From: an uncultured Ilumatobacter sp.
GTDB lineage: Bacteria; Actinomycetota; Acidimicrobiia; Acidimicrobiales; Ilumatobacteraceae
Length of the DNA stretch: 55,663 bases
Direction of reading: 5' to 3'
NCBI GenBank assembly: GCA_938044705.1
Contig: CALIOL010000014.1
Location: 1-55,663, forward strand
The notes beneath the pieces are model-generated. The model was not told where the DNA came from and did no database searches. It saw nothing but the letters and a program-made list of their open reading frames with translations. This document shows, piece by piece, positions 29,198 through 40,785 of the stretch. The position numbers and the translations under genes were made by a program. The first letter of the stretch is position 1, and each line of letters begins with the position of its first letter.

Positions 29198-31165
29198 TCA
29201 AGCTGGCTGTTGGTGGTCGGCCAAGAAGGCCAGGGCGTCGTTGGGTCGAAGCGCTGGGGATGTCATGAAGCCCTGGTAGAGATCGCATCCCGCGGCGTCC
29301 AGGAACTCGAGCTGTTCAGGTTGTTCGACGCCCTCGGCGACCGTTCGTAAGCCGAGGCCCCGCGCCAGGCCGAGGACCGCAGTCACCAGCTCGGCACTCG
29401 GGCGGTCGGCGGGAAGCCCGTCGACGAACCGCTTGTCGATCTTGAGTTCGGTTGCCCGAAGATCGAGGAGGTGACTGAGGCTCGAGTAGCCGGTTCCGAA
29501 GTCGTCGATCGCGAGGCCGATGCCGATCGCTTCGAAGTCCTGAAGGTTCTGGAGGAGAACGCCTTCGACTCGCGTGACTTCGTTCTCGGTGATCTCGACG
29601 GTGAGCGACGCTGGCTCGACGCCATGGGCGCCGAGGCGCTGTCGGATGAAGTCCGGAAGGTCGAGACGGCGCGCTTCGCTCGCCGACAGGTTGACATGCA
29701 CCGACGAAGCGTGATCGTGGCCTTGCGCCACCAGGTCGGCGACGAACTCCAGACTCTGATCGATCACACGATTCGTGAGCTGGGATGACAATCCACCCAC
29801 TTCGGCCAGGCCGAGGAACTGCGCGGGCGGCACGAGCCCACGCATCGGGTGCTCCCATCGCACGAGCGCCTCCCAGCCTCGCACGGTCTGCCCATCGCAA
29901 CTGAGCATCGGCTGGAACCACGGCGTTACCTCGCCGTCTGCCAAACCGGCTCGGAGCTCGGTGAGCAGCTCCCGACGGTCGCGATGTTCACCATCGGCGG
30001 CGACGAGCGACGGTGACCGTTGTGACCGCTCCTCGCGGACCAGTGACGACGCGCCGGTGAGGAGTTGCTCGAAGTTGGCCGGACTCCCGATCTTGCCGGC
30101 AGTCGACATCTGCACGGGCACCGGTCTTCCGTCGAGCACGAAGGGTTCGAACATGCAACGTTCGAGCGTGTCTCGCAAGCGGGCCACGTCGCGTTCGCCC
30201 TCGGCCGGAACCGCGATGGCGAACTCGTCGCCAGCGATGCGGCACAGCGCGACTTCCGGTTCGGCGAGCTCCTCGAGCCGCCGCGCGATCGATTGGAGTA
30301 CCGCGTCGCCCTGATCCACGCCGAACAGTTCGTTGATCGAGCTCAGGCGTTCGACGTTGCCGACGGCAACAGCAACCAGTTGGCCGCGTCGATTCGGGTC
30401 GCGCCAGCTGGCGAGCCAGGGCGTCAATCCGTCCCGGTTCAAGAGCAGCGTGAGTGGGTCCTGATACTCGAGCACTCGTGACAGTTGCTCGGCGAGCTGT
30501 TGGTTCTCGAGGTTCGAGGCAATGAGCGCGGTCAGCGTCTGGTGGAAGGCTCGGTGGAGCCACCACGCAGCAGCGAAGTACAGCACGAGGAGCGGGATGA
30601 ACGTTCCGCGAGGCAACTCGTCCATCACCAGCCCGATCGTGACCGTGCTCAACGCGCCCACGATCGTCGCGCCGTACAGAACGCGTGAGCCTGCGGTGAC
30701 GACCGCGGTCAGGCTCACCACGGCGAGCAAGACGACGAATCCGATCCATCGATCCGAGTCGGCGCCGTATCGCCCGGTGACCACGGGCAGTGCCCCCCAG
30801 ATTGCTCCGTACGTGAGGTAGTAGACGGCGTTCAGCTCGGTGTAGCGACGAGGGACCTTGCCGGTCTGCAGGATGCGCCGGTCATACACGTTGCAGGCGA
30901 CCGCACGAACGTTGTTCAGCAGCGCGACGGCACCCCACCACCAGATCGCATTCGACGTGAGTTGACCAGCGAAGAAGGCAACGACTCCGATCGTCGCACC
31001 GACATGCGGGAGATGCGAACGCCATAGCTGGAGCGAGGTGTTGCGCACCAACTCGAGTTCGACGGCAACAGAGCGCGTCGAGCGGCTGTCGCCAAGCGCT
31101 TCGCTGCTCATGCGAGAGGTCTCGGGGCGGGCGCGCAGAACACAACGTTCCTTCGGCGTGAGCAC
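29198..31165 (-). CDS. Membrane EAL-domain c-di-GMP phosphodiesterase with degenerate GGDEF
   Basis: A 655-residue protein: about six membrane helices (residues 50-210), a GGDEF domain (about 230-390) and an EAL domain (about 400-650). The GGDEF signature reads AGDEF (311-315), and the first metal Asp of the usual D-x-D/FKxxND stretch is lost (GNVERLSSINELFG), so the cyclase is probably inactive and may serve as a GTP sensor. The EAL domain looks complete: WEALVRW, VHVNLSA, TVEITENE, IDDFGTGYSSL, LKIDKRFV, AEGVEQ. Hence it should hydrolyse c-di-GMP. Start could instead be Met19 (31111). It lies directly upstream of the zinc-finger and Tad genes on the same strand. Confidence 0.9.
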   Translation of the reverse strand: MLTPKERCVLRARPETSRMSSEALGDSRSTRSVAVELELVRNTSLQLWRSHLPHVGATIGVVAFFAGQLTSNAIWWWGAVALLNNVRAVACNVYDRRILQTGKVPRRYTELNAVYYLTYGAIWGALPVVTGRYGADSDRWIGFVVLLAVVSLTAVVTAGSRVLYGATIVGALSTVTIGLVMDELPRGTFIPLLVLYFAAAWWLHRAFHQTLTALIASNLENQQLAEQLSRVLEYQDPLTLLLNRDGLTPWLASWRDPNRRGQLVAVAVGNVERLSSINELFGVDQGDAVLQSIARRLEELAEPEVALCRIAGDEFAIAVPAEGERDVARLRDTLERCMFEPFVLDGRPVPVQMSTAGKIGSPANFEQLLTGASSLVREERSQRSPSLVAADGEHRDRRELLTELRAGLADGEVTPWFQPMLSCDGQTVRGWEALVRWEHPMRGLVPPAQFLGLAEVGGLSSQLTNRVIDQSLEFVADLVAQGHDHASSVHVNLSASEARRLDLPDFIRQRLGAHGVEPASLTVEITENEVTRVEGVLLQNLQDFEAIGIGLAIDDFGTGYSSLSHLLDLRATELKIDKRFVDGLPADRPSAELVTAVLGLARGLGLRTVAEGVEQPEQLEFLDAAGCDLYQGFMTSPALRPNDALAFLADHQQPA

Positions 31166-31224
31166 GCCGAATCTTCAATCGCTGGACGTCGGTCGGTGTC
31201 GATAGGGTCGAGACCGTACTACCG

Positions 31225-31320
31225 GGAGGTGTCTGGGTACCTGGTGGGCTCCGCCGCCTTCAAAGCGGTTGGGATGGGCGATCCCCATCCGGCGGGTTCG
31301 ATTCCCGTCCACCTCCGCCA
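31225..31320 (+). tRNA. selC: Selenocysteine tRNA, anticodon UCA
   Basis: A 96-nt tRNA with encoded CCA. A 7-bp acceptor stem (GGAGGTG/CACCTCC) stacks on a 6-bp T stem, giving the 13-bp stack special to tRNA-Sec. The anticodon loop CTTCAAA carries UCA at 31260-31262 on a 5-bp stem (GCCGC/GCGGT). The variable arm is long, a perfect 7-bp stem (GGATGGG/CCCATCC) with a 5-nt loop. The T loop is TTCGATT and the discriminator is G. The D stem has six positions with one A-G mismatch. Overall it parallels the 95-nt E. coli selC. It reads UGA as selenocysteine with SelA, SelB and SelD; none of those genes is in the window. Confidence 0.96.
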
Positions 31321-31381: not shown

Positions 31382-31678
31382 ATGCGACGTGACGACCAAT
31401 CTGCGGCGAGCCCGGTTGGGCCGCGAGCGACGACCCGTGGACGATCTCGGTCATGGCTCCTCGCCGCCGCATGTCGACGCTCCGAGAGCGATGACGTGCC
31501 CGCAGCCACGAGTGTCTTCACGTGCGTGGAGTGCTGCGTCAAGAACGAGTGTCTCGATCGGGCGCTTCAGCGAGAACGGCGCGGACACCTCGTGCGTGGG
31601 GTGGCCGGAGGGTTGACCCAGCGAGAACGGCGCACGGTGCTCCGGATGGAGGCGTCCAACCTCCTCGTCATGAGCTGA
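31382..31678 (+). CDS. Miniature WhiB-like iron-sulfur regulator
   Basis: A 98-residue protein starting 61 bp after the tRNA. It has the WhiB pattern W25-x5-C31, then C48-x2-C51-x5-C57 (TCVECCVKNECLDRAL), a G-V-A-G-G turn like the family G[VI]WGG, and a basic tail (LTQRERR). The spacing between the first and second Cys is only 16, against the usual ~20-30, so it is compact. WhiB proteins bind a 4Fe-4S cluster and contact the principal sigma factor. The start is uncertain: ATG 31382 has a weak ribosome site and GTG 31358 is in frame. Confidence 0.68.
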   Translation: MRRDDQSAASPVGPRATTRGRSRSWLLAAACRRSESDDVPAATSVFTCVECCVKNECLDRALQRERRGHLVRGVAGGLTQRERRTVLRMEASNLLVMS

Positions 31679-33704: not shown

Positions 33705-34293
33705 GTCGTGTGCCTTCCGACCGTTGACGCTTCGGCACCGTCACGGGAGCAACGCTCATTGCAGCTCTCCATTGACGTCCTGATGTGCCGCACACTCCGA
33801 CGCGCAGACGAGTACGAGGACGCACGAAACGCGTGCTCGGACCCACTGGTTCGGAATCGCATACCACTGTGGCATGTAGGAAGAGACGGCACCGGAGAGC
33901 AATCGTGTCGGCCGTGAGAAAAACGAAACCGGGTAACGAAGCCGATGGCGGCTCGGTACCCGGTTTCGCGACCCGTCTGCCAGGCACTGGCTTCGGAGTC
34001 TTCGGCGTCGCAGGAACGACGTAGTTGAAACGACACAGAACGAACCCTTTCGTGTCGATGCCCGCCGACAAATCTCACCGAGAGGCTGGACGTCGACTCG
34101 ACCTCGAGGGTGATTGGGCGGGGTATCGGCACCCAAGTCCACCGACTTGAGAAATTTCTTTTCGGATTCGCGACACGAAGCGGGGTCAGCGGCGTCCCTT
34201 CAGACACACGGAACCCGAGATTCTTGGTTTCGGCCGCACCGGATGACCTCCGCAGCGGCCGCGAACAGACAGCAAGAACAACGAAACGGCGGA
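33705..34293. promoter_or_regulatory. Divergent control region between the sigma/anti-sigma gene and the surface-protein gene
   Basis: 589 bp without a convincing gene. It contains a perfect 12-bp inverted repeat (33924-33968) with an A5/T5 tract, a 6-bp hairpin CAAGTC-CACC-GACTTG (34134-34149) followed by the AT-rich AGAAATTTCTTTT, and several ORFs too poor to call. Length and structure suggest long 5' leaders for one or both genes. No recognisable riboswitch class could be matched by eye. Confidence 0.55.
33924..33968 (-). terminator. Intrinsic-terminator-like hairpin in the divergent region
   Basis: CGAAACCGGGTA (33924-33935) and TACCCGGTTTCG (33957-33968) are perfect reverse complements. 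Inside, AGCCG/CGGCT adds a second 5-bp stem with an ATGG loop. On the minus strand the stem is followed at once by TTTTT, so it reads as an intrinsic terminator for a leftward transcript. It lies 220 bp upstream of the sigma/anti-sigma start, where nothing needs terminating, so attenuation of that gene or the end of a small RNA is possible. Confidence 0.55.
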
Positions 34294-37200
34294 ATGATGC
34301 AGAACTCCCACACCCACAAGACAGCGCGGCTCATCGCAGCTCTGGCGGTGGCAGCAGCGATGCTGGTGATCCCAGCGGGCTCGGTCTTCGCGGGCGAGCC
34401 GACATTGACGAAGTCGCTGTCACAGACCCAGCCGTTCGCGAACGACGACGGCACCTTCCCGAGCGGCGCGACGGTCACCTATGAGGTGTCCATCGGCTGC
34501 AACGCCCCGGGCGACTGCGACGACTTCGAACTGCATGACCTCGCACCGACGTTCACCGATGTGAACGGTGCGCCCGGCGTGTACGAGTTCGTGTCGGCCT
34601 CTCCCGGTGGCGCTGGCCCGAACTTCGACATCGACGCGTCGGACCCGAGTGACATCGCACTGACGTTCCCGGATGGTTTCTCCGCAGGTACGTCGATGAA
34701 CATCCAAATGACCTTCGCGATCCCCGCCGGTGTCACCCCCGACAACACCACAGCGACGAACACCGCGATCTGGGGAGAATTCGACGACGACGGCAACCCG
34801 CTGCCGAACACGGTCACCGATACCCAAGACGTGACGTCGCGTGCGCGCACCTCGTTCGACGTCGTCAAGACCGGACCCGCCACGGTGAACCCGAACACCC
34901 CGGTCGAGTTCGTCGTGTCACTGTGCGGTGACAATCCTGACGACCCGTACTTCGGTCCGCTCGATGGCACCGTCGAGAACGCAACGCTGACCGACCAGAT
35001 CCCCGCTGGCTTCGTCATCGTCGACGCCGGCGGCGGCACCGACAACGGTGACGGCACCGTGACCTGGGATCTCGGCGACGTCGACCTCGGGCCAGGCGAT
35101 TGCGTCGATCGCACGATCACGCTCGAGTACCCGGCCACGGGGCCGATCACCGAACCGATCGCGTCCTCGAACGTGGTCGTCGCTGGTGGTGACTTCCCGC
35201 CGGACGGCGATGGAAACCCAGGTTCTGGCGACGTTCCCTTCGTCATCGACAACCCGAGCCCGGGCGAGCCCGGCATCGACAAGCGTGCGGGCCGCCCGTA
35301 CGTCGACCTCGATCTCAACGACGGAGCGACCGGCGACGACGGCGACAGCTTCTCCTCCTACTACCTCCAGCCCGAGAACACCGGTGAAGGGGTCATCTTC
35401 GATGCGATCCTCACCGACCCGATCCCCGATCGCTTCGCGGTCACTCGTTTCGACACGGGCACCTGGCCGACTGGGCCGACCGGTCCGAACGACGACTCGC
35501 TCGTCGAGTTCGTGTTCACCTTCCTCGACGGCAGCTCGCAGAGCATCTTCGCCGACGGGGTGACCGGCCAGTCCGTTGACATCGCCGACGAGATCGGGAA
35601 CCCGCTCGTTCAGGTCGCGGTCAACTACGGCGACCTGCCCGCAGGTTGGGTTCAGAACGGTGGCGAAGGTCGAAGCGAGCTCTACGGCTACTTCATCGAC
35701 CCCGGTCGGAGTGGCGGAGACCCGATCGACTTCGACGACGCGGCGAGTGTCGCCGTCGTCAACACCGCGACGCTCGTCGGCACCGTCGTCGACCCGGTCA
35801 CGGGTGACCTCGTGTCAGCATCGGACTCCGACACGGCCACGATCAACATCGAGAGCCCCCAGCCTCACCCCGCCGTCTTCAAGTCCGTGAGCGCGGCCGG
35901 GAACACGTTCGGCAACGGAGTGTTCCCGTCGAACGACGACGAGACGACCACGCTGACGTGGACCGTTCGTATCCAGAACCACTGGACGGCCACCGAGGTG
36001 TACCCGGACCCGGTCATCGTGGACCTGTTGCCGACACTCACTCCGAACGCCCTCGGTCAGGGAGGCCTTTCCGACGCCTACGACTTCACCGTCAACACTC
36101 CCGCCGGAGTCACCTGCCCTGTCGTCCCCGCCGACGGTGGCAGCGTTGCCAACACGGCGACCGGTCTCGATGACACGGTGCTCATCTGGGAGTGCACGGG
36201 CGACCTCGCCCGTACCGAGAACATCACGATCACGTTCAAGACCGACGTGGAAGCCGGCACCCCGCCTCAGAGCATCCTCAACCGCGACTACACCACCACG
36301 AACGCGCTCACCGACGATGGCTCCGGGCAGTACTTCTCCGCCTGGAACGGCGGTGCGTTCTTCGGCGAGTGGCAGGACGACGTCGACGATCTCGATGGCG
36401 ACGGGGACACCACGGACCGCATCCGCACCGACGTCGCCAGCATCGAAGTGCTGGACTTCGTGTTCCTCGAATCCGTCAAGCAAGTGCGCGGCGGCCCCGA
36501 CGCCGAGTGCAATGGCGACAGCTTCCCGCCGGCAGGTCAGGACAACACGACCTATGGCATCGGACGTTGCACCCGGCCGGGCGGCATCGTCGACTACGAG
36601 ATGGTCGTGACCAACCGAGGAAACACCGACATCGTCAACCTGATGGTGATGGACATCTTCCCGGCAGTGGGCGACAGCTTCGTCGTGCCCAACCAGAACA
36701 CCGGCGCCGTCGGACCACGAAACAGCGCGTTCGACACCTACCTCACCGGCCCGGTGACCAGCCCTGACCCGAACGTGGTCGTGGAGTACTCGGTCGAACA
36801 GGAGCCCTGCCGATACGACGACTTCTACCCGAGCAACGCCGGCGCAGCCGAGGTTCCGGGATGCAGCCCCGCCAACTGGACGACGACCCCTCCATCGCCG
36901 ATCTCGAGCGCACGCGCGATTCGAATCAGCTACGTGGATCCGGCGACCGGTGACGTCGCCGTGCTCGAGATCGACGACACGTTCGTCCTCGAGTGGCCGA
37001 TGCGTGCCTCGGTCGCCGCGCAGACCGATGACATCGCGACCAATGCGTTCGGCTGGTCCGCCCAGTCGGCGACGTCGGACACGGTGAACACCGCGGGCCC
37101 CGCCCCGGTCGACATCAGCGTTGCCGCACTCGACGACTTCTTCCTCGGCGATCAGGTCTGGTACGACGAGAACTACGACGGCACACAGGACGAGGGCCCG

Positions 37201-40200
37201 CTGGTCGGAGTCCCGCAAGTTCCCGTCGCGGTCTTCCTCGACAACAACGGGAACGGCGTTCTCGACGCTGACGACATCTTCGTCCAGGAAACGGTGACCG
37301 ACTCCGCTCCGGGGTTCGAAGGCCAGTACCTGTTCTCGGACCTGCCCGCTGGTGACTACTTCGTGGCGTTCGCTCCGCCGAGTGACTGGGTTGTCAGCCC
37401 CGCATTCCAGGGTGGCGACACCGCGGTGGACTCCAACGGCACCGAAGCACCTGCGTTCCCGACCACCCTGTGGGACCCGGCTGCCGTCAACGGACCACTC
37501 TTCGACGACATCTTCGTCTCCGACGTCGTCAACCTCGGACCCGACAACTCATCGGTCGACACACCGAACGACCTGACCATCGACCTCGGTCTCTGGCGTC
37601 CGGACCCCGCGATCGACATCGAGAAGGCCACGAACGCTGCTGATGCGGACGCCCCGACCGTCGATGAGGACGCTGATGTCCCGCCCGGTCGGTTCATCCC
37701 AGAAGGCGAAGACGTCACATGGAGCTACGTGGTCACGAACACGGGCAACACCGTGCTCGACAACGTGGCCATCACCGATGACAACGGCACCCCCGACCCC
37801 GCTGACGACCTGTCGACCTCGCTCGGCACGATCACCTGTCCGCTGACGACCCTCGCTCCGGACGAGTCGATGACGTGTACGTCGACGACTCCCGTCGCGG
37901 CGATCGCGGGTCAGTACACCAACACCGCCGACGTGATCGGTGACCCGGTGCTCCCCGACATCCCGTGGAGCGAGGATTCCTACGCCGACCTGGAACGCCT
38001 GGACGGCACGCCGTTCTACGACGCAGACGGCGAGATCGTTCCGGTCGCCGACGACGATCCGTCGAACTACTTCGGCGCGATCGCGACGGTCGACATCGAA
38101 AAGTCGACCAACGGTGTTGCGGCCGACGGCGTCGGATCCGAACCGGCTGGCCCGGTCGTGCCCGTGCTCGACGCGGTGCAGTGGACCTACGTGGTCACGA
38201 TTCCTGCGCCGGGCAACGTTCCACTCGCCGAGGTCGTACTGATCGACGACAACGGCACGCCGGCGGACACTTCCGATGACCTGACCACTGCGAACGGAGA
38301 CTTCACCTTCGTCGGCGGCGACTCCAACGACAACGGGCTGCTCGACGTCGATGAGACGTGGACCTACACCGCCGATGCTCCCGACGGCGCAGTCCTCGGC
38401 ATCTACGAGAACACCGCCGACGTCATCGGGACGCCGGTGACACCTGACGGCACGCCCATCGAGAACCCCGACGGCACACCGATGGAACAGCCTGAAGACG
38501 ACGACCCATCTCACTACTACGGCATCGCGGTGCCGGCGATCGACATCGAGAAGTCGACCAACGGCGTTGCTGCCGATCTTCCGGGCACCGACCCGGCCGG
38601 CCCGGAGATCCTTGCTGGCTCGGATGTGACGTGGACGTACGTCATCGCCAACATCGGCAACGTCGACCTCGAGGTCACAGGATTCGTCGACGACCAGATC
38701 GGTGCGATCTCGGCGTGCGAGGAAGACGCCACCGAATCCGTGTTCCCGGTGATCCTCGCGCCGACCGAATCGGTGACGTGCACCTTCACCGCTCCCAACG
38801 GAGCAGCAATCGGTGAGTACATCAACATCGCTGACGTGACAGGCACCCCGCTCGACCCAGACGGCAACGAGATCACCGAGAACGTGACGCCCGACGGGCC
38901 GATCCCGGTCGATCCTCCAGAAGACGACGATCCGTCCAACTACACGGGCGTCGGTACTCCAGGCATCGACATCGAGAAGACCACCAACGGTTTCCAGGCC
39001 GACGACCCGACCGGCGACCAGACCGACATCAACAACACGGTGCCGTACGTCGAACTCGACGACCAGGTCACCTGGGAGTACGTCATCACCAACACCGGCG
39101 ACTTCGCGCTGCTCGTCGACGAGTTCTCCGACGACCAGATCGTCGACGTCTCCACCCTGTGCGTCGAGCCTGATCTGTTCCCCGTCACGCTGCAACCGAC
39201 AGAGTCGGTCACCTGCACGGTGATCGGCGTTGCGACAGCGCAGCCCGGCGATCTCTACATCAACGTCGCTGACGTGATCGGGGTCGCGGTCGACCCCAGC
39301 GGCGACCCAATCGTCGACCAGGACGGCAATGACCCGTTCGTCGACCCGGAAGGCGAGTCGACGATCATCGACGACGACCCGAGCGCCTACTTCGGTGCAG
39401 GGCCCGGCATCGACCTCGAGAAGTCGACCAACGGGTTCGACGCCGACACGGGCACCGGGCCGTTCGTCGCCCTGGGTGGCCAGGTCACCTGGGTCTATGA
39501 CATCACGAACACCGGTAACACCGACCTCGTCGGGCTCGTCGTGACCGACTCGGTCGAAGGCGAGATCTGCCGAATCGACTTCCTCGCGATCGGCGAGACC
39601 CAGTCCTGCGAGCTGGTGCTCGAAGCTTCCACCCTCGTGGGCCAATACGCGAACGGATCGAACGTGGTCGCACAGCCCGTCGACCAATTCGGCGAACCGA
39701 TCGTCGACCCGGTCACCGGTGAGCCTGTCGACCCGATCGGCGACTCGGACCCATCTCACTACTTCGGCGCAGAGCCCGGCATCGACATCGAGAAGTCGAC
39801 CAACGGCGAAGATGCCGACACGGGTACGGGACCGTTCATCGCGCTCGGCGCTGAGGTGACGTGGACCTACGTCGTGACCAACACCGGAAACGTTCCGCTG
39901 ACCGGCATCGTCGTCATCGACGACCAGGAGGGCGAGATCTGCACGATCCCGCTGCTGTTGGCAGGAGAGACCGAGACGTGCGAGTCCTTCATGCCGGCCG
40001 ACACCATCGGCCAGTACGAGAACCTCGGTGAGGTCGTCGGCACCCCATCGTTCCCGATCGACCCCGATGGTGATCCCACGGATCCGGAGAACTATGACCC
40101 GATCGTCGACCCGGAGTCGGGCGACCCGATTCCGGACGTCGACGACGAGGATCCGAGCCACTACTTCGGCATCAACCCCGGCGTCGACATCGAGAAGACG

Positions 40201-40785
40201 ACCAACGGCGAGGACGCCGACGTCGAAGGCAGCGGTCCGATCGTCGATGAAGGCGAGACCGTGGCGTGGGTGTACACGATCACCAACGTCGGTGACACGC
40301 CGTTGATCGATCTCGAGGTGGCCGATGACGTCGAAGGCGACATCTGCGTGATCCCGCTGCTTCTGCCTGGCGATTCGACCACGTGCACTGCGTTCGGTTT
40401 CGGCGGTCGTCAGAACTACCGCAACGTCGGCAGCGTGACCGGCACCCCGGCTGGGCCGGTCGACCCTGACGGTGATCTGTCGGATCCCGACAACTACGAG
40501 CCCATCGACACCGACCCGGTCACGGACGACGACCCGAGCGGCTACTCGGTCGGGATCGTGCTGGACACGACGCTGCCGGAGCCCCCGCAGCCCGCACTGC
40601 CCGACCCGACGCCGCCTGTGCTTCCGGACCCCAATCCGACCACGGGTCCTGACGCCCTTCCCGAGACCGGTGCCAACAGCACCTTCCGGCTGCTGACCGG
40701 TGGACTCGGCTTGCTCGCCGCTGGACTCCTGCTCCTGGTGGGTACTCGTCGTCGTCGAGACCGCGAGGTCATCGCGGCGCAGTGA
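34294..40785 (+). CDS. Giant LPETG cell-wall-anchored surface protein with DUF11-like repeats
   Basis: 2163 residues from ATG 34294; the track start at 34114 adds a non-signal extension. A signal peptide (TARLIAALAVAAAMLVIPAGSVFA) leads into several DUF11/Ig-like domains, a SdrD-B-like domain (FFLGDQVWYDENYDGTQDEG, near residue 949) with DxNxDG-type Ca-binding loops, and seven tandem ~125-160-residue repeats beginning [IV]D[IL]EK(S/T/A)TN (residues ~1107-2086). A Pro-rich wall-spanning segment precedes LPETG (2122-2126), a hydrophobic helix and RRRRDR, a full sortase signal. It is strongly acidic, very Asp-rich. Likely an adhesin or surface-layer stalk. No sortase gene is in the window. Start could be the adjacent ATG 34297. 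Confidence 0.9.
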   Translation: MMQNSHTHKTARLIAALAVAAAMLVIPAGSVFAGEPTLTKSLSQTQPFANDDGTFPSGATVTYEVSIGCNAPGDCDDFELHDLAPTFTDVNGAPGVYEFVSASPGGAGPNFDIDASDPSDIALTFPDGFSAGTSMNIQMTFAIPAGVTPDNTTATNTAIWGEFDDDGNPLPNTVTDTQDVTSRARTSFDVVKTGPATVNPNTPVEFVVSLCGDNPDDPYFGPLDGTVENATLTDQIPAGFVIVDAGGGTDNGDGTVTWDLGDVDLGPGDCVDRTITLEYPATGPITEPIASSNVVVAGGDFPPDGDGNPGSGDVPFVIDNPSPGEPGIDKRAGRPYVDLDLNDGATGDDGDSFSSYYLQPENTGEGVIFDAILTDPIPDRFAVTRFDTGTWPTGPTGPNDDSLVEFVFTFLDGSSQSIFADGVTGQSVDIADEIGNPLVQVAVNYGDLPAGWVQNGGEGRSELYGYFIDPGRSGGDPIDFDDAASVAVVNTATLVGTVVDPVTGDLVSASDSDTATINIESPQPHPAVFKSVSAAGNTFGNGVFPSNDDETTTLTWTVRIQNHWTATEVYPDPVIVDLLPTLTPNALGQGGLSDAYDFTVNTPAGVTCPVVPADGGSVANTATGLDDTVLIWECTGDLARTENITITFKTDVEAGTPPQSILNRDYTTTNALTDDGSGQYFSAWNGGAFFGEWQDDVDDLDGDGDTTDRIRTDVASIEVLDFVFLESVKQVRGGPDAECNGDSFPPAGQDNTTYGIGRCTRPGGIVDYEMVVTNRGNTDIVNLMVMDIFPAVGDSFVVPNQNTGAVGPRNSAFDTYLTGPVTSPDPNVVVEYSVEQEPCRYDDFYPSNAGAAEVPGCSPANWTTTPPSPISSARAIRISYVDPATGDVAVLEIDDTFVLEWPMRASVAAQTDDIATNAFGWSAQSATSDTVNTAGPAPVDISVAALDDFFLGDQVWYDENYDGTQDEGPLVGVPQVPVAVFLDNNGNGVLDADDIFVQETVTDSAPGFEGQYLFSDLPAGDYFVAFAPPSDWVVSPAFQGGDTAVDSNGTEAPAFPTTLWDPAAVNGPLFDDIFVSDVVNLGPDNSSVDTPNDLTIDLGLWRPDPAIDIEKATNAADADAPTVDEDADVPPGRFIPEGEDVTWSYVVTNTGNTVLDNVAITDDNGTPDPADDLSTSLGTITCPLTTLAPDESMTCTSTTPVAAIAGQYTNTADVIGDPVLPDIPWSEDSYADLERLDGTPFYDADGEIVPVADDDPSNYFGAIATVDIEKSTNGVAADGVGSEPAGPVVPVLDAVQWTYVVTIPAPGNVPLAEVVLIDDNGTPADTSDDLTTANGDFTFVGGDSNDNGLLDVDETWTYTADAPDGAVLGIYENTADVIGTPVTPDGTPIENPDGTPMEQPEDDDPSHYYGIAVPAIDIEKSTNGVAADLPGTDPAGPEILAGSDVTWTYVIANIGNVDLEVTGFVDDQIGAISACEEDATESVFPVILAPTESVTCTFTAPNGAAIGEYINIADVTGTPLDPDGNEITENVTPDGPIPVDPPEDDDPSNYTGVGTPGIDIEKTTNGFQADDPTGDQTDINNTVPYVELDDQVTWEYVITNTGDFALLVDEFSDDQIVDVSTLCVEPDLFPVTLQPTESVTCTVIGVATAQPGDLYINVADVIGVAVDPSGDPIVDQDGNDPFVDPEGESTIIDDDPSAYFGAGPGIDLEKSTNGFDADTGTGPFVALGGQVTWVYDITNTGNTDLVGLVVTDSVEGEICRIDFLAIGETQSCELVLEASTLVGQYANGSNVVAQPVDQFGEPIVDPVTGEPVDPIGDSDPSHYFGAEPGIDIEKSTNGEDADTGTGPFIALGAEVTWTYVVTNTGNVPLTGIVVIDDQEGEICTIPLLLAGETETCESFMPADTIGQYENLGEVVGTPSFPIDPDGDPTDPENYDPIVDPESGDPIPDVDDEDPSHYFGINPGVDIEKTTNGEDADVEGSGPIVDEGETVAWVYTITNVGDTPLIDLEVADDVEGDICVIPLLLPGDSTTCTAFGFGGRQNYRNVGSVTGTPAGPVDPDGDLSDPDNYEPIDTDPVTDDDPSGYSVGIVLDTTLPEPPQPALPDPTPPVLPDPNPTTGPDALPETGANSTFRLLTGGLGLLAAGLLLLVGTRRRRDREVIAAQ
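37612..40551 (+). repeat. Seven tandem DUF11-like coding repeats
   Basis: Repeats begin near 37612, 38089, 38539, 38964, 39409, 39781 and 40183. Each opens with text like IDIEKSTNG-DAD, continues VTW-YV(I/V)TNTGN, has a Cys pair in the later members (GEICTIPLLLAGETETC), and ends DDDPS-YFG. At DNA level the openings are near-identical (cgacatcgagaagtcgacc), which gives scope for recombination between units. Copies 5-7 are shorter and more alike than 1-4. Confidence 0.85.

Follow-up and report, generated by a model that had tools for sequence, protein, structure and literature searches.

A selenocysteine tRNA gene and its partner genes in an uncultured Ilumatobacter, with a prediction of leaderless transcription for related tRNA-Sec genes

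The 55.7-kb stretch of Ilumatobacter DNA analysed here over its full length, hereafter the window, carries a complete gene for selenocysteine (Sec) tRNA, selC, which, judging by its sequence, is almost certainly active. It is a known kind of gene, and the finding holds up and is for the most part ordinary, because the same genome contains the remaining Sec machinery and two predicted selenoprotein genes. The one part that a specialist might find surprising is the predicted spacing between promoter and gene in this group of tRNA genes.

Identity of the gene

ARAGORN placed a tRNA-SeC(tca) at positions 31225-31320 of the forward strand, as the sole tRNA gene of the window, and the Rfam tRNA-Sec model RF01852 aligned end to end (model positions 1-91 of 91) with 31225-31316, scoring 66.5 bits (E 2e-11) where the gathering score is 47 bits; nowhere else in the 3.88-Mb genome was this cut-off exceeded. 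Together with the fold, these matches define a gene of 96 nt including the encoded CCA. The anticodon UCA, which reads UGA, lies at 31260-31262 (+; ARAGORN and Rfam), and the discriminator G73 (31317) and the CCA are read directly from the sequence at 31317-31320 (+). The marks of bacterial tRNA-Sec found here are the full-length model score, UCA, a 13-bp acceptor/T stack, a 6-bp D-stem with a 4-nt loop, which is the feature that SelA recognises, and G73. The initial annotation, made from the letters alone, had described a complete tRNA-Sec gene with UCA, a 13-bp stack, a 7-bp variable arm and encoded CCA, had named a covariance model as a check and had considered an acidimicrobial source likely; its coordinates and description proved correct, the model scores well, and near-identical selC sequences occur in Ilumatobacter and Acidimicrobiaceae records.

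Such a molecule could conceivably be a tRNA-Sec-like tRNA of other use, that is, an opal suppressor, an allo-tRNA or a selC-type tRNA-Cys, and tRNAs with long variable arms, some of them bearing UCA, do exist (PMC7609411). Their acceptor domains, however, are of 12 bp (8/4 or 9/3; PMC7609411), whereas that of the window selC is of 13 bp, and the same genome holds a full set of Sec machinery together with UGA-containing genes, which likewise speak for tRNA-Sec, so that another use appears extremely improbable.

Sec machinery and predicted selenoproteins

The genome of the window is 82% complete and is distributed over 369 contigs. All three partner genes that the initial annotation had proposed to search for were found above curated cut-offs: SelA (414 bits, cut-off 268) and SelB (273 bits, cut-off 242) on contig C74, and SelD (365 bits, cut-off 125) on contig C215. 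The selA and selB open reading frames overlap by 4 nt, and the frames of this contig match the Pfam SelA, EF-Tu GTPase and SelB winged-helix domains.

Two UGA-containing genes emerged from the selenoproteome, which was sampled by families only. The first is selD itself, with one in-frame TGA at the Sec/Cys position (..LTQFSHGAG-U-GCKLAP..). An in-frame TGA in selD also occurs in a complete genome of the genus (G134) and in many other members of the order and is absent from others; therefore, Sec and Cys forms alternate, an alternation already known for SelD. The second is fdhA, a molybdopterin oxidoreductase gene on contig C120 with one TGA, the product of which, when read through, is 41% identical to Escherichia coli FdhF over 346 aa, the TGA aligning exactly with Sec140. 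Only the first part of fdhA is present on C120, because the gene lies at the contig end; a matching molybdopterin-domain fragment is found on C187. From the UGA on, the fdhA mRNA begins UGACACG.., as does that of E. coli fdhF, and the hairpin 3' of the UGA exposes an apical loop GGUCU identical to that of fdhF. Because this hairpin is no more stable than shuffled sequences (z -0.55), the case for a SECIS in fdhA is built on where the hairpin lies and on its identical loop. For the selD of this genome, no clear SECIS could be recognised, and Rfam searches of the contigs with selAB, selD and fdhA returned nothing at gathering score.

By the established bacterial pathway, SerRS would load the tRNA with serine, SelA would turn Ser into Sec on the tRNA, using selenophosphate supplied by SelD, which is itself predicted to be a selenoprotein, and SelB would deliver Sec-tRNA wherever a UGA codon has a SECIS hairpin after it. 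The earlier proposal that this organism makes at least one selenoprotein gains support from selD and fdhA, each of which has an in-frame UGA at a known catalytic position, and we predict that, in the Ilumatobacter of the window, UGA is read as Sec at least in FdhA and SelD.

These data also bear on whether selC might be a relic, retained after Sec decoding was lost, as its solitary position, distant from selA, selB and selD, could suggest. That reading is rejected because selA, selB and selD are present, above curated cut-offs, in the same genome. Further evidence against it comes from the two UGA-containing targets, from the tRNA itself, in which G1-C72, G73, CCA, the anticodon loop and every arm are intact, and from the selC of a genus mate (L052), which is identical to that of the window. 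The probability that selC is a relic is accordingly very small, and an active gene is by far the better reading.

Distribution and genomic neighbourhood

Across 148 genomes of the Acidimicrobiales, selC was detected with a strong score (at least 57 bits) in 87 and SelA in 88; both were present in 81 and neither in 54, the remaining 6 and 7 having selC or SelA singly, and several of these lone occurrences come from assemblies that are fragmented or incomplete. The co-occurrence is pronounced (Fisher p 1e-25, uncorrected for ancestry). An apparent second selC on contig C33 of one genome (G019) was rejected, since the place holds a tRNA-Ser.

The initial annotation had seen no selA, selB or selD near selC and had considered the gene separated from its usual partners. 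Indeed, none of the matches in this genome falls on the contig of the window (C14), selAB and selD residing on two other contigs, and the separation also holds in G134, the complete genome of the same genus (4,830,181 bp), in which selC maps to 403 kb and selA to 4,314 kb, a distance of about 0.92 Mb if the replicon is circular. Among members of the order with selC and selA on one contig, the distance is usually 8-35 kb and falls within 3 kb in six genomes. Taken with the gap in G134, these distances mean that separation of selC from selA is normal in the order and more extreme in Ilumatobacter.

Beside selC lies a gene cluster for a Tad/Flp-type pilus, in which the T2SSE ATPase and the genes near it are also kept in three members of the family; selC stands alone by this cluster and would be transcribed separately from selAB. 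Between selC and the pilus-type genes, a GGDEF-EAL protein is encoded at 29198-31165 (-), which, unlike those genes, is weakly matched in the family loci. Just downstream of selC, 31505-31636 (+) matches Pfam Whib at 24.1 bits over profile positions 25-64 of 65. The frame of this WhiB-like fragment passes through the tRNA gene, and the fragment lacks the beginning of the domain, so that it could be either a remnant or misframed. Further on, 34114-40785 (+) encodes a predicted 2223-aa surface protein that contains DUF7507/DUF11 repeats as well as an SdrD_B-like domain.

Structure of the tRNA

The unconstrained fold of selC (-46.9 kcal/mol, z -2.1) comprises a 7-bp acceptor stem and a 6-bp T-stem, together 13 bp, along with an anticodon stem of 5 bp and a variable arm of 7 bp. 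Comparison across the order and the fold place the 5' strand of the acceptor stem at 31225-31231 (+), pairing with 31310-31316, and the T-arm at 31291-31309 (+), with a stem of 31291-31296/31304-31309 and the loop UUCGAUU; the variable arm, defined by Rfam and the fold, occupies 31272-31290 (+; 31272-31278/31284-31290).

We prefer to divide the stack as 7+6 rather than 8+5, because nucleotide 8 (U 31232) faces C 31309 (C85), with which it forms no standard pair, whereas a pair between G67 and C85 is available. The 7+6 split is possible in 46 of the 49 selC genes of the order and is common, albeit not universal, in other classes. Could the stack nonetheless be an ordinary 8+5 with a U8-C mismatch and no real 7+6? 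The stack position is nearly invariant, so that covariation cannot prove the sixth T-stem pair, and a true eighth acceptor pair is formed in some members (L021, and many of other classes). Against this stand the unconstrained fold and the wide availability of G67-C85, where U8-C85 offers no pair. The 8+5 reading, which concerns structure only and is compatible with an active selC, seems to us the less probable of the two, although it retains a sizeable share of the probability. As to the preferred 7+6 split, the possibility that it is unique to the Acidimicrobiales was rejected, the split being widespread across the phylum. Folds described as 8/5, 9/4, 7/5 and 8/4 are on record (PMC5330540, PMC7609411); we did not find a 7/6 fold named in these two papers, which cover the literature incompletely.

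The D-arm (31235-31251, +) consists of 4 bp (31235-31238/31248-31251), a bulged A (31239), 2 bp (31240-31241/31246-31247) and the loop UGGU (31242-31245). Mismatches in the Rfam alignment might be taken for a damaged D-arm; this was rejected, since with the purine at nucleotide 15 bulged, 98% of the cells are paired over 62 sequences, compared with 66-68% in the unbulged registers. At one D-stem pair, all of the G-C, A-U, C-G and U-A types occur among these 62 sequences. The 7+6 split and the bulged purine would be old, clade-wide traits, common to the order, that evidently work.

Two observations concern other tRNA-Sec genes. In four of them (L156, L161, L162 and L171), the anticodon loop reads UUCAAC rather than UUCAAA, the base 3' of the anticodon being altered. 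A divergent second selC with a GGGGAUG acceptor is found at 1500-1600 of L033 (genome G091, contig C125), the standard selC of that genome lying on its contig C66.

Promoter spacing

Upstream regions were searched for the actinobacterial -10 motif TANNNT (selC loci L020-L069, L091-L095 and L171-L174; controls L191-L320). Among 122 unique selC upstream regions of the phylum, 46 have a TANNNT that ends exactly 7 nt before G1, against 1.65 expected from shuffles. Within the Acidimicrobiales alone, 38 of 56 selC genes have the motif ending 6-8 nt before G1, compared with 5 of 92 other tRNA genes, the latter drawn mostly from two Ilumatobacter genomes and another genome of the order; in these controls the motif peaks at 10-15 nt, and nearly all of the five exceptions are tRNA-Ser genes. 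When tRNA-Ser and tRNA-Leu(UAA) from as many as 99 Acidimicrobiales genomes were added to the comparison, the 6-8-nt spacing was seen in 69/121 tRNA-Sec and 20/34 tRNA-Ser(UGA) genes, against 0/12 for tRNA-Ser(GCU), 5/35 for tRNA-Leu and 1/86 for all others; these counts are not independent, because the genomes are related, and the selC loci are biased towards higher-scoring matches. Consequently, the notion that leaderless transcription is unique to tRNA-Sec was rejected, the arrangement being common to tRNA-Ser(UGA).

In Cutibacterium (P.) acnes, the centre of TANNNT lies about 9 nt upstream of the mapped start (PMC3848588). Combined with a 7-nt gap, this would set the start at G1 or one base before, which predicts leaderless tRNA-Sec and tRNA-Ser(UGA). 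We give roughly even credence to the full proposal, namely, that in Acidimicrobiales and elsewhere in Actinomycetota the promoters of selC and tRNA-Ser(UGA) set the start at G1, which those of the remaining tRNA genes, tRNA-Ser(GCU) among them, do not; that the two tRNAs arise with neither a leader nor a need for RNase P, as vertebrate tRNA-Sec does; and that the Ilumatobacter selC promoter was secondarily shifted 9 nt upstream. The window selC is itself an exception to the 7-nt spacing: its candidate -10 box, TAGGGT (31203-31208, +), lies 16 nt before G1, as it does in the likewise exceptional genus mates L052, L091 and L093, and a 5' leader of about 9-10 nt is predicted. A general sigma-70 scan found no full promoter near the gene.

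Implications and comparison with known systems

The genes described here indicate Sec decoding for the marine actinobacterial lineage Ilumatobacter, on which no selenoprotein papers were found in the literature searched, itself of incomplete coverage. More broadly, the tRNA-Sec genes of Actinomycetota are predicted often to begin transcription at the mature 5' end. If true, bacteria would offer a parallel to vertebrates, in which tRNA[Ser]Sec transcription begins at the first nucleotide and leaves no leader (PMC8744743), and the finding would bear on correct 5' end formation in a tRNA with an unusual acceptor stack. The parallel concerns most relatives of the genus, for which a start at G1 is predicted, and differs in that the promoter is of the bacterial -10 type and that a leader is predicted for the gene of the window itself.

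With the E. coli type 8/5 tRNA-Sec (RF01852), the window selC shares UCA, the 13-bp stack, the 6-bp D-stem with its 4-nt loop, the long variable arm and G73; it departs from that type in the 7+6 division, the bulged D-stem purine and the absence of adjoining selA and selB. The variant bacterial tRNA-Sec with 12-bp (7/5) stacks (PMC5330540) have the 7-bp acceptor in common with it, whereas the window selC keeps 13 bp, its T-stem being of 6 bp. The D-stem bulge at 13a of Clostridiales tRNA-Sec (PMC5330540) has a counterpart here, also after the fourth D-stem pair, an equivalence drawn by our own numbering. Finally, fdhA resembles E. coli fdhF in having its UGA at the residue of Sec140 and GGUCU at the apex of the hairpin, the stem of which differs from the E. 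coli SECIS in both sequence and length.
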